This document shows positions 1,839 to 34,108 of a stretch of 42,045 nt of DNA, piece by piece. Within the stretch, counting starts at the first letter, position 1; each line of letters begins with the position of its first letter. The notes beneath the pieces are model-generated. The model worked only from the letters and a program-made list of their open reading frames with translations, had not been told where the DNA came from and made no database searches. The DNA is from Gammaproteobacteria bacterium (GTDB lineage: Bacteria > Pseudomonadota > Gammaproteobacteria > SZUA-152): contig JAKEGK010000021.1 of the NCBI GenBank assembly GCA_022627515.1, forward strand, positions 1 through 42,045. The letters are read 5' to 3'. A program made the translations under genes and the position numbers.

Positions 1839-2334
1839 CCAATGACTTCTTAATCGGCCTGTATTCGAGCCATCCCTGATCAACTGCCGTGACTTTGTAG
1901 AACCTGTCTCAAAATTGGTTTGTCAGCGATTTCGGGGGTGTATTTCAAAACCGTCGGCGGCATGGATGCCGCCGCCGAGCATTCTTTTCGAAACAAGCAT
2001 GGACGGCCGCTTACGGCAACCTCGACAATTGCTCCTGCATTGTTCTACCTTCGCCCATCCATGGGCTCGCGCCTCCCGCGGCGATTGTGCATCCATGCAC
2101 TTCGTATTTACAGCGTGTCCGGCAACGCCAAGCCCAAGGTGGCTTACCTTTGCAGCATGTGTTTTTTACAACCTAAGGGTATGTTCTGCTTACCGGGTAC
2201 CAATGGCTGATCATGAATGCTCACCGGGTGTTGTTTATACTCAGTTCAATTCCGTGATACAAACGTGATTTTTACGTGACGTGAGTGTGACCTTTGGCGT
2301 GCACCATCTTCTCTCCACAATGGGTTTGTTTGAT
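1839..2334. other. Intergenic region with a near-perfect palindrome, no supported gene
   Basis: Overlapping open frames at 1915-2268 and 1920-2210 have no RBS and give proline/cysteine-rich translations typical of noncoding GC-rich DNA. The clearest structure is the near-palindrome GGCGGCATGGATGCCGCC at 1956-1973. The phrases CATGGATGC, CATCCATGGGC and CATCCATGC recur at 1961, 2057 and 2091, which suggests a degenerate dispersed repeat. Confidence 0.4.
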
Positions 2335-9286: not shown

Positions 9287-9532
9287 GTGTAATCCTTTCC
9301 GTTAAACCGCGTGTTGAGTTCGCTGTGCGCACAGCCGGATAAAAGAGCCGTATAAACCATGCCACATTAACAGTCCCCGCGCGTTGAGCCTGGTCAATAG
9401 CAGGCCGGGAATTGAAACTGGAGTCAGACGCGCGTCGCTATTCAGGCGGTAGCCGGAATCCAGGAGAATAAAAAAGATCGTTGACTATATTCACTATAGG
9501 GGTCGGGAACAGCATTGCCGTCCCCGCCCTCC

Positions 9533-9565
9533 GAACCGTACAGGCGGTTTTCCCGCATACGGCTC
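9533..9565 (-). ncRNA. Group II intron domain V
   Basis: The minus strand reads GAGCCGTATGCGGGAAAACC then GCCTGTACGGTTC. This is the conserved domain V hairpin, with the catalytic AGC triad, a GAAA tetraloop and the CG bulge side. It is the ribozyme active site and identifies the intron's 3' half. Confidence 0.85.
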
Positions 9566-9582
9566 TCCAGTTGGTGGTTGCT

Positions 9583-10929
9583 TCAACGAGATCGGCTCGC
9601 GCGTGCATAGGCTTGAGTCATGGTGAACAGCCCATGAGTTGCGAAGAAGGCATTCGGCCAACGCTTGTGGTCGCTGAGAGCATGACCCTGTCCGGGACGC
9701 TTGCGCTGTTGCTTGCGCAAGATAGCAGGCAGGCGTCGGCGTACGAAACCGTCCACGTTGGTGAAGGTGTACCGATGCGCGTGTTTGAAGTATTCAAACC
9801 ATCCTCGAAGAATGGGGTTGAGTTCTTCAATGACGCAGGTGATGGCCACCCCTCGTCCACGTGCCGTACGGCTCCGGATTGCATCGCGCAACTTGCGCAT
9901 ACTTTTACGCCTCACCCAGCGTTGTCCCGCTTCAAATCGATACCCCAGAAACTCAAAGCCCTGTCCCACTTGCCGGCAGTCTCCAAGATGCGTCTTGTCT
10001 GGATGGAGTTCCAGTCGATTCGCAGCCATCCAGCTTCGGATATTCTCCAAAGCGCAAGTGGCTTGTTCATGGCTTTCGCATAATACAACGAAGTCATCTG
10101 CGTATCGGACCATATTGAAGCCATGCTCCGTCAGTAATACATCCAGATCGTGCAGGTAAATGTTCGCCAGCAGAGGGCTCAGTACCGCACCTTGCGGTGT
10201 GCCTTTGGTTGGTGTCCATTGTTCCAGCCCGTTGAAAATATCCTGCTTGAGAAAGGCTCCTATGAGTCTGAGCAACTTTTCATCACTGATGCGTTTTTCC
10301 ATCTTGCGCATCAGCATGTCATGGGAAATGCTGTCAAAATAGCTCCGAATATCCGCATCCACCACGTAGACATAGCCCGATTGAATCAGCTCATCTACCT
10401 CACGCAAGGCGTCTTTGCAACCCTTGCCGGGGCGGAAGCCGTAGCTCACCGGCAGAAAGTCTTTCTCGAATATGGGTTCGATGACTTTCTTCGCGGCGGC
10501 CTGGACCACCCGATCTTTCACAACCGGGATACCCAACGGTCTTCTCTTACCCTCGGCCTTGGGAATTTCCACGCGTCGCACGGGGTGGGGATGATAGTTT
10601 CCGGTTTTAAGTTGCTCATGCAATTCGTCCAGGTAACGCTGTGATTGGTTGTCAAACCGTTCAATCGTGATTTGATCCACTCCCGCTGCACCTCGATTCT
10701 TGCGCACAGTTTCCCATGCCGTTCGTAACGTCGTTTTCGCATAGACTTTGTCGATCAGACTAAACCATTTGCCTCCTTTGACGCCGTTATCCAGCGCCGC
10801 CAACATCCGCTCGTTCCATACGCAGGCTTCCACCCAACCCCATTCCAGGGCTGACGTTTCTGTATCTTGTCTAGTTGTTTCCAACACTTTCAATACTCCG
10901 TTTACACAGTGCCTTTGGTTGGTCCTCAC
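9583..10929 (-). CDS. ltrA: Group II intron reverse transcriptase/maturase, 448 aa
   Basis: Residues about 75-330 carry the seven RT blocks: 'RGAAGVDQITIERF', 'RRVEIPKAEGKRRPLGIPVVKDRVVQ', 'SYGFRPGKGCKDAL', 'VVDADIRSYFDSI', 'GTPQGAVLSPLLANIYL', the catalytic 'MVRYADDFVVLC' (YADD), and 'FEFLGYRF'. The maturase (X) domain follows with 'LNPILRGWFEYFKHA' and a short C-terminus ending 'HGLFTMTQAYARASRSR'. No HNH endonuclease domain is present. It assists splicing of its own intron and copies it into DNA. Length is normal with no stops or frameshifts. The first 35 residues lie in RNA structure, and the exact start is uncertain. Confidence 0.92.
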   Translation of the reverse strand: MRTNQRHCVNGVLKVLETTRQDTETSALEWGWVEACVWNERMLAALDNGVKGGKWFSLIDKVYAKTTLRTAWETVRKNRGAAGVDQITIERFDNQSQRYLDELHEQLKTGNYHPHPVRRVEIPKAEGKRRPLGIPVVKDRVVQAAAKKVIEPIFEKDFLPVSYGFRPGKGCKDALREVDELIQSGYVYVVDADIRSYFDSISHDMLMRKMEKRISDEKLLRLIGAFLKQDIFNGLEQWTPTKGTPQGAVLSPLLANIYLHDLDVLLTEHGFNMVRYADDFVVLCESHEQATCALENIRSWMAANRLELHPDKTHLGDCRQVGQGFEFLGYRFEAGQRWVRRKSMRKLRDAIRSRTARGRGVAITCVIEELNPILRGWFEYFKHAHRYTFTNVDGFVRRRLPAILRKQQRKRPGQGHALSDHKRWPNAFFATHGLFTMTQAYARASRSR

Positions 10930-11427
10930 GTCTCCACCTTCCTACCTCCCTTTCCTGTTTACGGGTTATGCTGTCCCGCACTTTTCGCGTTGCGCGTTTG
11001 GTCTTAGGCAGAGTGTCCACTCCAGGTTCTCCGCCGATGCGTTTCCACATCGTCGCCATCACCACCGCTTTCAACGTCACAGTACTATGAAGGTTCTGAC
11101 TCCTGCCCCGTTTCACCACCAAGGCAGGTCTCCCCGCTTAATGCGCACCACCTTCAACCCATTCCATCCTCAAACACGTCATGTGCTCAGACATCACTTG
11201 ATTCACCATACTCAGCGTGTCTGACGGTTTCTCAGGCTTCGCCTTGTATCCGCAGGCTCGCCGCAACATGCCGCCAATATCAGGTTCGTTATCCTACGGA
11301 CTGGGCTTTCACCTCCCGTTGCTCTCCACCCCGCTTCGCAGCGACGCAGTTACGTTCGGTTATGAAGTTCATGGCAAACTCCTGTACAGACTTCCACTGT
11401 ACTGATGGTACGCCCTCACGGGCGCAC

Positions 11428-15612: not shown

Positions 15613-15870
15613 CTAGTGAGTGTATGCTTGCCGGTGAATGGCTTTGGATTTCCGGCAAAGATAGTTGTGAATTTTATAACGGACCCACAAAAATACCCCG
15701 GAGAGCGGGTCCCACTGAATAATACCGCTCATTATAGGATATACCGCGATGAGGGAGAGCCACGGCGGGACAGATGAATACACCAGTACTGCCAGAATTA
15801 ATACAATTCCCCCAAAGATACGTACGACGGCTTCATGTTTACTGATATTTGCGCTATTGAAATTAAACAC
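15613..15870 (-). CDS. Small inner-membrane protein, DUF2892 type, 85 aa
   Basis: Two hydrophobic segments, 'IFGGIVLILAVLVYSSV' (about 18-34) and 'WLSLIAVYPIMSGIIQW' (about 37-53), separated by a tight PP turn, with the family's 'VVRIFGG' entry and 'YPIMSG' pattern. DUF2892/YgaP-type transmembrane domains occur alone or fused to rhodanese domains and are of unknown function. The usual CPL motif after the second helix is replaced by 'WDPLSG', so this is a diverged member. The C-terminal tail is basic. An ATTGTCA tandem repeat lies about 180 bp upstream. Confidence 0.7.
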   Translation of the reverse strand: MFNFNSANISKHEAVVRIFGGIVLILAVLVYSSVPPWLSLIAVYPIMSGIIQWDPLSGVFLWVRYKIHNYLCRKSKAIHRQAYTH

Positions 15871-22298: not shown

Positions 22299-22708
22299 AG
22301 CGCCAGCCATTTTCATAATTTCCATGCCAGTCACAATCATTACAAGACTATTACAAAATCATCACACCTCGAATAAGACGGGTGCTGTTAAATTCTCTTC
22401 AAAGCCGAGGAATTTCCGATTATTTCTCTCTCCCCTGAGAGGATGTCGCAAAACTCATGCGCAGGTTGGGCTGAGGTACGAAGTCCAACAGAAACCTTTT
22501 AGAAATCAAAGTATGCAGGGTTGAGTTCCTCACCACCAACCTGCAGAAAAACGGGTTTTGCGGCACCCTCCCTGAGGGAGACGACTGCAAGGATACATGA
22601 GGTAGGGCGGTGCAGGATGTTAATGCCAAGGGCCAGAGCCTGCCCCGGACTCGATCCGGGGGTGCGGATAAGCACTTGAAACTTTTACCCTCCCCCTAAC
22701 CCCCTCCC
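22299..22708. other. Intergenic repeats next to the insertion sequence
   Basis: No gene. Contains a large imperfect inverted repeat (22437-22577) and the hairpin CCCCGGACTCGATCCGGGG near 22643, then a C-rich tract (CCCTCCCCCTAACCCCCTCC) that abuts the left end of the IS. Confidence 0.5.
22437..22577. repeat. Imperfect inverted repeat, arms about 45 bp, MITE-like
   Basis: Left arm GAGAGGATGTCGCAAAACTC ... GCAGGTTGGGCTGAGGTAC (22437-22480). The reverse complement of the right arm (22529-22577) reads GGGAGGGTGCCGCAAAACCC ... GCAGGTTGGTGGTGAGGAAC. Such long arms with a short centre suggest a nonautonomous transposable element. No target-site duplication is evident. Confidence 0.6.
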
Positions 22709-31817: not shown

Positions 31818-32250
31818 ACAGAATACCGCTTGTAATCACAATACCCGAAACGTACTTGTAACCGTTAGGGTACTTGTTATGCCTATCTTATAGTTTTCGC
31901 AGGGTGTGCGCCGCGCACCGGTGATGAGCAATGCGAACCTTTAAAGATGGGCAATGCCCATCCTGCCGTTTTCGTAGGGTGGGCATTGCACACCAAAGAA
32001 GTGTTCCCAATTGCGCAGGCTGGATGAAGCATCCAAAGGGCACTCGTAACCTTTTGGTTAGAAACTTCGCCGCCATCCATTCTTTCAATCCTCCCCTTTG
32101 TAAAGGGAGGTTAGGCGGGATTGAACCGAATTGCCCTGAATAAATTACTAAATCCAAACACCCAACCACAGGAAAGAAACACGCTTTTTTTGCCTGATCC
32201 TGTCGAATGATAAAGCAACGTATTTTCAATAACATATGAAATTCTGCTTG
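31818..32250. repeat. Intergenic repeat cluster
   Basis: Two direct copies of GTTTTCGYAGGGTGKGC (near 31890 and 31967), CCCATC/GGGTGGGCATTGC-type inverted pieces around 31945-31995, and the palindrome CCTCCCCTTTGTAAAGGGAG (32090-32109). Open frames here lack an RBS. No gene. Confidence 0.5.
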
Positions 32251-32317: not shown

Positions 32318-32632
32318 ATGAGCATTAAAAGCAAAGACATCGTTCCCATCAATCAGGTGCGTGCGCGCTTTACCGAACTGGCGGAAGAAGTCCGCCAGGG
32401 CAGTGAAAAAATCGTGACACGCAATGGCGAAAGTTATGTGGCGCTGGTCGATGCAAGGCGCCTGGATTATTACCACCAGCTGGAGAAAGAAAATATTCAT
32501 TTGATTTTGCTCCAGGATGTTAAGCGAGGCCTTTCAGATATTGGAGCGGGCAGATACAGCAAAGTCGCAGAAGCGCAAGCCCGTTATCAAGCGCGACTGA
32601 GTAAAAAATCCAAACCAAAACCAAAAAAATAA
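32318..32632 (+). CDS. Phd/YefM-type antitoxin, 104 aa
   Basis: The N-terminal DNA-binding fold is recognisable: 'DIVPINQVRARFTELAEEVR' followed by 'EKIVTRNGESYVALVDARRL' (the usual 'I.TrnG.p.avlv....Y' strand). The C-terminal part is helical and ends in a very basic tail (KKSKPKPKK). It would repress the operon and neutralise the toxin encoded 12 bp downstream. GAGAAGG lies about 13 bases before the ATG. Three TACATTA repeats and a palindrome upstream fit autoregulation. Confidence 0.8.
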   Translation: MSIKSKDIVPINQVRARFTELAEEVRQGSEKIVTRNGESYVALVDARRLDYYHQLEKENIHLILLQDVKRGLSDIGAGRYSKVAEAQARYQARLSKKSKPKPKK

Positions 32633-32644
32633 CAACAACAAAAC

Positions 32645-33025
32645 ATGAGCCAACACGCCACGGTTTACATCACGCAAAACTTCGAAAATAATCTCGACTC
32701 CATTGAGCAGTTCTTTACAGATAACGAAGCGCCAGAACAATTTGACGCTCTGATCGAGGACCTGTTCGGTACGATTATTCCCAACCTGCAAAGATTTCCC
32801 CTTTTGGGTAAAAATTTTCTAGAGCACCAGCCGGGATCAATAGAAGGTGTAAACCTTACAGAATCTATACAACGGTATTTAAATGGCAAAGGCGAGGTAC
32901 GCGAGTACATAACCGGGGATTACCTGATTCTCTATGCATTGATAGCCGGCATTATATATCTGTTGAGCATCAAACATCACAAACAACTGGCATTTGACTT
33001 TATCAGCACATGGATTGATAACTGA
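32645..33025 (+). CDS. RelE/ParE-type toxin, 126 aa
   Basis: The sequence 'TVYITQNFENNLDSIEQFF' is the typical first strand and helix ('v.it..f..nL..i..f'), with 'PNLQRFPLLGKNFLEHQPGS' in the centre and a final 'REYITGDYLILYALIAGIIY' and 'LLSIKHHKQLAFDF' strand pair, as in ParE-like proteins. The central insert makes it longer than usual (90-100 aa). RelE-type members cut mRNA at the ribosome and ParE-type members poison gyrase; this one cannot be placed. It lies 12 bp after the antitoxin stop. Confidence 0.75.
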   Translation: MSQHATVYITQNFENNLDSIEQFFTDNEAPEQFDALIEDLFGTIIPNLQRFPLLGKNFLEHQPGSIEGVNLTESIQRYLNGKGEVREYITGDYLILYALIAGIIYLLSIKHHKQLAFDFISTWIDN

Positions 33026-33082
33026 CAAAATCCTGATTCATCATTCCAGCAATACAATTTGCCTGTCATCCCGGTGTGACCG

Positions 33083-33229
33083 CCATGGAGAAGTACATGG
33101 ACAAGTTGAGATCGTGTAACGATCGAGAAGGTGGTCTGGACCATGTGTGAGATAGAAAATGTCTGGAACACATTTCGAGAATTGCGTCTGGAACACGCAG
33201 TCGAGAGCGCTGTCTGGAACAAGCGCTGA
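33083..33229 (+). repeat. Array of six consecutive hairpins, four with a shared CTGGA apex; possible small RNA
   Basis: Hairpins in order: CCATG/CATGG (33083-33100), GATCGT/ACGATC (33110-33124), TGGT/ACCA (33132-33143), AAATGT/ACATTT, TGCGT/ACGCA, and AGCGCT/AGCGCT (ending 33229). The last four show the same apex GTCTGGAACA (GTCTGGACCA in the first) at 33134, 33161, 33186 and 33212, while the stems below differ in sequence but keep pairing. GAGA-type linkers separate them. The 27-25-26 nt spacing is not a multiple of three, which argues against coding. GGA in loop tips recalls CsrA/RsmA-binding RNAs, though the flanking bases differ from that consensus. No promoter or terminator was identified. 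Confidence 0.6.
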
Positions 33230-33310
33230 GAGCGACGCAGGATGCCAAAACCGAGGAGCAATTTTCTGCCGGGCCGGATCCATGTTTGTTACAAAAAGAG
33301 GTTAGAGGAG

Positions 33311-33454
33311 AATGGCGCTTAGTTAAGGCGTAATTCAGGGTGTTCGTCATTCCGGCGAAGGCCGGAATCCAGGGAAAACTACCACCATTGTAGATTCTGG
33401 ATCCCGGCCTTCGCCGGGATGACGGCGGTTCCAGGCTTAACTAAGTGCCATTCA
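33311..33454. mobile_element. MITE, 144 bp, with target-site duplication
   Basis: Terminal inverted repeats AATGGCGCTTAGTTAAG (33311-33327) and CTTAACTAAGTGCCATT (33436-33452) differ at one position. The sequence GGTTAGAGGAG is duplicated on both sides (33300-33310 and 33455-33465), as expected of a transposed element; because AG is shared with the end, the duplication is 9-11 bp. Inside is a second palindrome with 28-bp arms (33345-33372 and 33397-33424), CGTCATTCCGGCGAAGGCCG and so on. It has no ORF and must be moved by a transposase encoded elsewhere, probably of IS4 type from the target length. Confidence 0.8.
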
Positions 33455-33499: not shown

Positions 33500-33823
33500 C
33501 TAAGCAGCTTTGGATTTGAAAATAGTCTTTGCGATTTCTTTTTCAGTTGCCCCCAACGCCAACATCGATTTGACTACCAGATCAATTGACACCGAAGGAT
33601 CACCGGTTTCCATTTTAGCTACTCTGGACTGGCTGGACTTTATAAGTTTTGCCAATCCTTCCTGGGTCATGTGCCGCTTGATACGCAGATTTTTCAAGCC
33701 ATTGCAAAGCTTCAATTTCATTTCGATATAGGCAGCTTCTTCATCTGACAGACCCAGAAAGTCTGCCGTGTTACCAACTTTCCAACCTTTGGCTTTCAGT
33801 TTTTTACGTTTAGCTGCTTTCAT
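33500..33823 (-). CDS. HigA-type XRE antitoxin, 107 aa
   Basis: Residues about 40-100 form an XRE helix-turn-helix: 'GLKNLRIKRHMTQEGLAKLI' and 'SSQSRVAKMETGDPSVSIDL' with the SRVAKME recognition helix, then 'VVKSMLALGATEKEIAKTI'. The N-terminal extension has 'NTADFLGLSDEEAAYIEMKL', characteristic of antitoxins paired with Gp49/HigB toxins. The toxin gene ends four bases into this gene on the same strand, so the two were an operon in toxin-first order, usual for higBA. Here the toxin is frameshifted, so the antitoxin may stand alone. Confidence 0.85.
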   Translation of the reverse strand: MKAAKRKKLKAKGWKVGNTADFLGLSDEEAAYIEMKLKLCNGLKNLRIKRHMTQEGLAKLIKSSQSRVAKMETGDPSVSIDLVVKSMLALGATEKEIAKTIFKSKAA

Positions 33824-34108
33824 TCATCATACTCCTTGATTCGCTTTTTACAGGTATCAATAACTTGTTTAGGAGTTTTATTGGTTTTTTTCTCAAATAC
33901 GTCCAGAATTACGATAGCATCGTCGTCAATTCTATAGATAATTCTCCAGGTTCCTGTTTCATCATTAATGCGTAATTCATGGCAACGGCGGCCTATATTC
34001 GGCATAGGGGAGCGATTGAGGCATTGATAGCTTGATCTCCTGCTGCAACTGCCTTAACAAATAGCCGGCTTTTAACCGTGCATTCTGCGAAAAAGGAGGT
34101 GACCCCAT
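33820..34108 (-). pseudogene. HigB/Gp49-like toxin with a frameshift
   Basis: An ATG at 34108 opens 'MGSPPFSQNARLKAGYLLRQ', then 'LQQEIKLSMPQSLPY', the typical N-terminal half of Gp49-like toxins. The frame breaks at the C4 run 34007-34010 (CCCC on the minus strand). In the next frame 'PMPNIGRRCHELRINDETGT', 'WRIIYRIDDDAIVILDVFEK' and 'DTCKKRIKEYDE' complete the protein. Removing one C joins the halves into a normal toxin of about 95 residues (SLPMPNIG). Translated alone, the second half (61 aa) would lack the first helices. The antitoxin downstream is intact, so loss of the toxin would cost little. Confidence 0.8.

Follow-up and report, generated by a model that had tools for sequence, protein, structure and literature searches.

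REP sequences of the GTAG and CGTC types and the BIMEs are palindromic repeats, and some REPs are reported, for three species, to be inserted within other palindromes, according to the part of PMC3733652 drawn on here. In CsrB, the repeats read CAGGA(U/A/C)G, and the CsrA motif obtained by SELEX is RUACARGGAUGU (PMC7652899). The locus compared with these systems is a run of hairpins in a window of 42,045 nucleotides, the whole stretch of DNA that was analysed (contig JAKEGK010000021.1 of the gammaproteobacterial assembly GCA_022627515.1). The original prediction read it either as a regulatory RNA, perhaps a CsrA sponge, or as a structured DNA site. The structured-DNA alternative is the best fit among the readings: with a probability of roughly 0.7, the array is one member of a dispersed family of mosaic DNA repeats, each built of multiple hairpins, that behaves like REPs or BIMEs. 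The family is dispersed, modular and nested, its stems covary, its tips are conserved and its orientation to genes is random.

All six of the consecutive hairpins first predicted are present at 33083-33227 (+ strand, as are all parts of this element). Hairpin 1 (33083-33100, CCATGgagaagtaCATGG) reads directly in the sequence as CCATG/CATGG around gagaagta. Hairpins 2 (33110-33124, GATCGTgtaACGATC) and 3 (33132-33143, TGGTctggACCA) lie within 33096-33145 (CATGGAGAAGGTGAGACCGGGAACCGGTCGAGAGGCTGGCCTGGGCCATG), where the 50-nt module M1 is present in diverged form (row L102 of the alignment is the same sequence). The other three are M3 modules: hairpin 4 (33157-33175, AAATGTctggaacACATTT) pairs AAATGT with ACATTT and hairpin 5 (33183-33199, TGCGTctggaacACGCA) TGCGT with ACGCA, both around ctggaac, and hairpin 6 (33206-33227, AGCGCTgtctggaacaAGCGCT) is a one-base bulge form with AGCGCT on either side of gtctggaaca. 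The shared top starts at 33134 (variant GTCTGGACCA), 33161, 33186 and 33212, in agreement with the predicted spacings of 27, 25 and 26.

The element is larger than was first described, extending from about 33075 to 33271, and a seventh hairpin-type block and two flanking repeat arms also belong to the feature. The block is the terminal module B (33232-33256, GCGACGCAGGATGCCAAAACCGAGG, tip CAGGATG), with one mismatch to the module consensus. The left arm (33064-33074, TGTCATCCCGG) and the right arm (33272-33282, GGCCGGATCCA, placed by sequence and by flank analysis of homologues) are the two halves of a host palindromic repeat, a CGTC-type REP, which the window copy splits; an intact REP of the same type lies just downstream (33345-33424). 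A neighbouring MITE-like element with GAATGGCGCTTAGTTAAG ends (33310-33453) has the intact CGTC-REP pair inside and is separate from the hairpin array; ends of a similar kind lie on either side of a Y1 transposase region in L083 (~2200-2320). Two toxin-antitoxin pairs flank the window element, Phd/ParE-like at 32318-33025 (+) and HTH/Gp49-like at 33500-34005 (-), and a group II intron with Rfam D5 and D1-D4 matches occupies 9496-11345 (-). The window copy is a long version of the element, with three tandem M3 hairpins. A second family copy in the window (1998-2105, -) has the hairpins GTGCATGGATGCAC, GCCCATGGATGGGC and ACAATGCAGGAGCAATTGT, and a third copy, a degenerate form of the two-hairpin basic unit, lies inside CCCTCCCTGAGGGAGA...GGGCCAGAGCC (22582-22631, +).

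The hairpin content of the array exceeds that of most shuffled sequences, since its perfect stems of at least 4 bp are reached by 14 of 1000 dinucleotide shuffles and its three hairpins of at least 5 bp by 10 of 1000. The same repeat-rich contig, on the other hand, has 62 of 2095 147-nt windows that match its hairpin score, so that hairpin content by itself is unremarkable, and the reality of the array is shown instead by the apex common to its hairpins and by homologous copies elsewhere. The stability of the whole-strand fold is also ordinary relative to shuffles (z of -0.78 for the + strand and -0.43 for the - strand). Since neither stability nor hairpin content is distinctive, the case rests on the homologues.

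Homologues beyond the locus, which the original prediction had proposed as a check, are found both in the same genome and in others. A 251-base query finds five other places in the same genome, and a longer copy from contig C45 gives 28 BLAST matches there, a copy number that is known from searches and comes from that one query. The C45 query has matches in 11 of the 30 genomes searched, this genome included. The pattern of the terminal module B occurs nine times in this genome and 22 times in four relatives that share its family, and the reversed control finds none in either set; a fifth genome, from another family, has a lone match with three mismatches. When about 85,000 named species genomes were scanned with the 50-nt module, 45 stretches were found, nearly all from uncultured gammaproteobacteria, in lineages that include Ectothiorhodospiraceae, Chromatiales, Acidiferrobacteraceae and Thiotrichaceae, named MAGs among them. 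Two matches are labelled Flammeovirgaceae and Halobacteria, and these labels are plausibly binning errors. Searches of phage and plasmid collections for the element gave no match, and none of the papers searched mentions the module sequences. A pattern for M3 between fixed linkers gave zero matches and was probably too strict.

Four hairpin modules recur in the family. Module A/M2 (for example CTGCATGGATGCAG and GCACAAGGATGTGC) has the tip CANGGANG, module B (GCAGGATGC, or ACAATGCAGGAGCAATTGT with one bulged base) has CAGGA(T/A/C)G, and module M3 (GACAACGTCTGGAACAAGTTGTC, with a bulge) has GT(C/A)NGGAAC. Module M1 is 50 nt long, consists of two hairpins within a CATGG/CCATG closing stem, and occupies the tip of hairpin A. 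All modules of one element have the same orientation and are joined by purine linkers of the GAG type. The basic A+B unit, 48 bp with two hairpins, is found either as a lone insert or directly repeated in tandem every 48 bp, while M2 and M3 are added to it in the longer forms. At L204 (~1500-1700) there are three tandem 48-bp units, the third of which has an unrelated palindrome, CGCTGGTTGGGGCGATTTCAATCGCCGTACCAGCG, in a hairpin tip, another case of nesting in a tip.

The conserved feature of these modules is the hairpin with its tip, and the stem sequence is free. In an alignment of 23 distinct M1 copies, 96.7% of the cells are paired; both sides have changed at six of the 12 pairs, a count that overstates the number of events because the family copies are related, not independent. 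Each of five covariation measures is higher than in all 500 shuffles, and sliding the pairing partner abolishes the signal. The claim that pairing is maintained while stems change, and the covariation check suggested along with it, are thus borne out across homologues. Constant GGA-bearing tips, also claimed, are seen in the copies of hairpins A, B and M3. Among 28 distinct copies of hairpin A, the tip CANGGANG has A in 27, G in 27, G in 26 and A in 28, with the N positions varying freely, while the stem columns are GC in 14, AT in seven and CG in four, with compensated changes. The GT(C/A)NGGAAC tip of M3, in which N is free, is common to unrelated stems. The exception to tip constancy is the inner loop of M1, which varies and often has no GGA (GTGTAA in the window copy). 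In the wobble comparison, aimed at the functional strand, there are about 17 G-T cells against nine A-C cells. An unbiased survey of hairpin loops over 295 kb did not show tip enrichment, the copies being too few.

At least four unrelated repeats have elements lying between their two halves, among them TTGGGGTGA/ACCCCAAC, CCCTCTCCCTTGAGGGAGA/GGGCTGGGG, CTCCGGCGAA/GGCCGGAG and GGCGGCA/TGCCGCC. The left and right flanks are complementary, with a score of at least 8, in 15 of 41 elements, compared with 7.9% of mismatched flank pairs. When the elements were considered as MITEs, the inverted repeats flanking them proved to belong to the host repeats, and no clean or consistent target-site duplication was found at their ends. 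Like REPs, the elements show no preferred direction relative to the genes beside them and favour convergent gaps. A simple longest-ORF caller assigned both neighbouring genes for 60 intergenic copies: 18 of these copies read in the same direction as the two genes and 20 in the opposite direction, while the gap is convergent for 18 and divergent for four. One M1 copy (L148) lies in frame within an integrase-core transposase gene, which makes the earlier view that the spacing excludes coding too strong.

One rival, in which chance or slippage brought together quasi-palindromes that share neither ancestry nor constraint, would account for a fold no more stable than shuffles and for a contig in which hairpin-rich stretches are common, but the modules have homologues of high identity in other genera and their covariation exceeds that of all shuffles, and this reading is extremely improbable. 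That the array belongs to an ordinary GTAG REP family mobilised by a RAYT, a Y1 tyrosine transposase, is very unlikely. The genome does have Y1_Tnp genes, GTAG (AGGTAG followed by a hairpin) precedes several modules, though only some, and the family shares with GTAG and CGTC REPs the character of a dispersed short intergenic palindrome in many copies. Its hairpins, however, show neither a conserved terminal tetranucleotide tag nor a family-specific stem, whereas stem, loop and tag together are what define a REP family. Among the 34 Y1_Tnp loci of this genome and nine relatives, the unit occurs within 3 kb at two and never at the gene ends, and a RAYT partner forming a REPtron was rejected, no RAYT gene in that scan being flanked by the 48-bp unit. 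One RAYT gene (L086, G000:C4) is bracketed by a different repeat, GGGTGGGC...GCCCACCC, and is likely to be the REPtron of that repeat, which also occurs in the window near 31910-31990.

The reading of the arrays as CsrA/RsmA decoys supposes a transcript of the GGA strand in which each hairpin would be a putative CsrA site, with the dispersed copies jointly, or a few long ones, titrating CsrA. It draws on the tips of hairpins A, B and M3, which match the CsrA motifs CAGGA(U/A/C)G and RUACARGGAUGU (PMC7652899), on hairpin-tip GGA above shuffles in all four elements tested, and on csrA itself, which is found as one gene in this genome, where the original prediction had advised looking for it, and in 28 of the 30 genomes. 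Multiple GGA occur in hairpin tips as in CsrB and RsmZ, though not in every hairpin. Beyond the tips the sponge idea finds no support, and as a whole this reading is unlikely. The copies have no preferred direction relative to genes, GGA is often missing from the inner M1 hairpin, and the total GGA count equals that of shuffles in two long copies. At the window element there is no promoter or intrinsic terminator above chance, and the free fold of its + strand does not favour the hairpins (-52.3 kcal/mol, against -38.5 kcal/mol when pairs are restricted to short range; hairpins 3-6 have pair probabilities below about 0.1). Rfam covariance models run against the elements at E up to 5-10 gave no CsrB or RsmZ match, nor any to the TwoAYGGAY RNA at E up to 5 or 10. 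A stand-alone regulatory RNA at this locus, as first proposed, does not agree with a dispersed, nested repeat that is random in gene orientation and lacks both an Rfam match and such signals. To judge from motif matches, titration of CsrA by the arrays is possible. A better Csr-RNA candidate, with no significant similarity to the element, lies on contig C229 of the same genome (G000:C229 ~15640-15800, L263, - strand): it has eight GGA, a GTCACAGGATGTGAC hairpin, promoter-like sequence upstream, a terminator-like GGCGGCAGTTGCCGCC hairpin and a weak CsrB match of 16.7 bits. Descent of the family from this Csr-like RNA was rejected, the alignment being no better than shuffles. In a relative (G025), L258 1501-1714 is likely to be a CsrB-family RNA (30.2 bits, below the gathering score), with eleven GGA in the stretch that includes it and a terminator-like hairpin and a T run after it.

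In the preferred reading of the array as a copy of a structured DNA repeat, the basic 48-bp A+B unit (tips CANGGANG and CAGGANG) lies within pre-existing palindromic repeats, and the element would grow as further modules are inserted next to its hairpins or into the tip of one. It would most likely propagate as a folded single strand, a hairpin or cruciform exposed in replication; the tip would be read by a host or trans-acting enzyme, and existing palindromes, since they fold out as well, may serve as landing sites. That the element is mobile, that such an enzyme acts on it and that the host is affected are inferred. Against this reading, no transposase partner was found among the Y1/RAYT loci of the genome and nine relatives, there is no clean target-site duplication, and the restriction to GGA at the tips calls for an explanation that REPs generally do not need. 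A version in which the family is self-spreading or host-amplified and its mobile part is a putative CsrA-binding hairpin, giving tens of dispersed decoys, is improbable; if true, such mobile hairpins could modulate the Csr regulon and seed new Csr-type RNAs. The structured-DNA reading would add a class of repeat in which the tip is conserved, the stem is free and hairpins are added singly inside existing palindromes. Two questions become testable: by what enzyme or process the tips of hairpins are read in bacterial chromosomes, and whether a global RNA-binding regulator can draw binding sites from repeat families.

The family was previously unnamed, and its unusual rule is that the tip is fixed and the stem free; a family of this kind is not described in the part of PMC3733652 considered here. 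With the CsrA-sequestering RNAs of the CsrB/RsmZ type it has in common tandem hairpins, GGA tips, purine linkers and CAGGA(U/A/C)G, but unlike them it occurs in tens of dispersed copies, in random orientation, nested in repeats and without a terminator, and matches no Rfam model even when E values up to 5-10 are allowed. Rickettsia palindromic elements (RPE) are likewise palindromic modules able to lie in frame in genes, whereas the array family is mostly intergenic, with one in-frame example (L148), and has another sequence and another lineage. From REPs and BIMEs it differs in its free stems and constant tip, in its direct-oriented multi-hairpin arrays, and in hairpins that do not each have a defining 5' tag or a RAYT association. 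Like the GTAG and CGTC repeats covered in that part of PMC3733652, it consists of short, dispersed, many-copy palindromes that are intergenic, favour convergent gaps, and are sometimes found in genes and sometimes nested in other palindromes.
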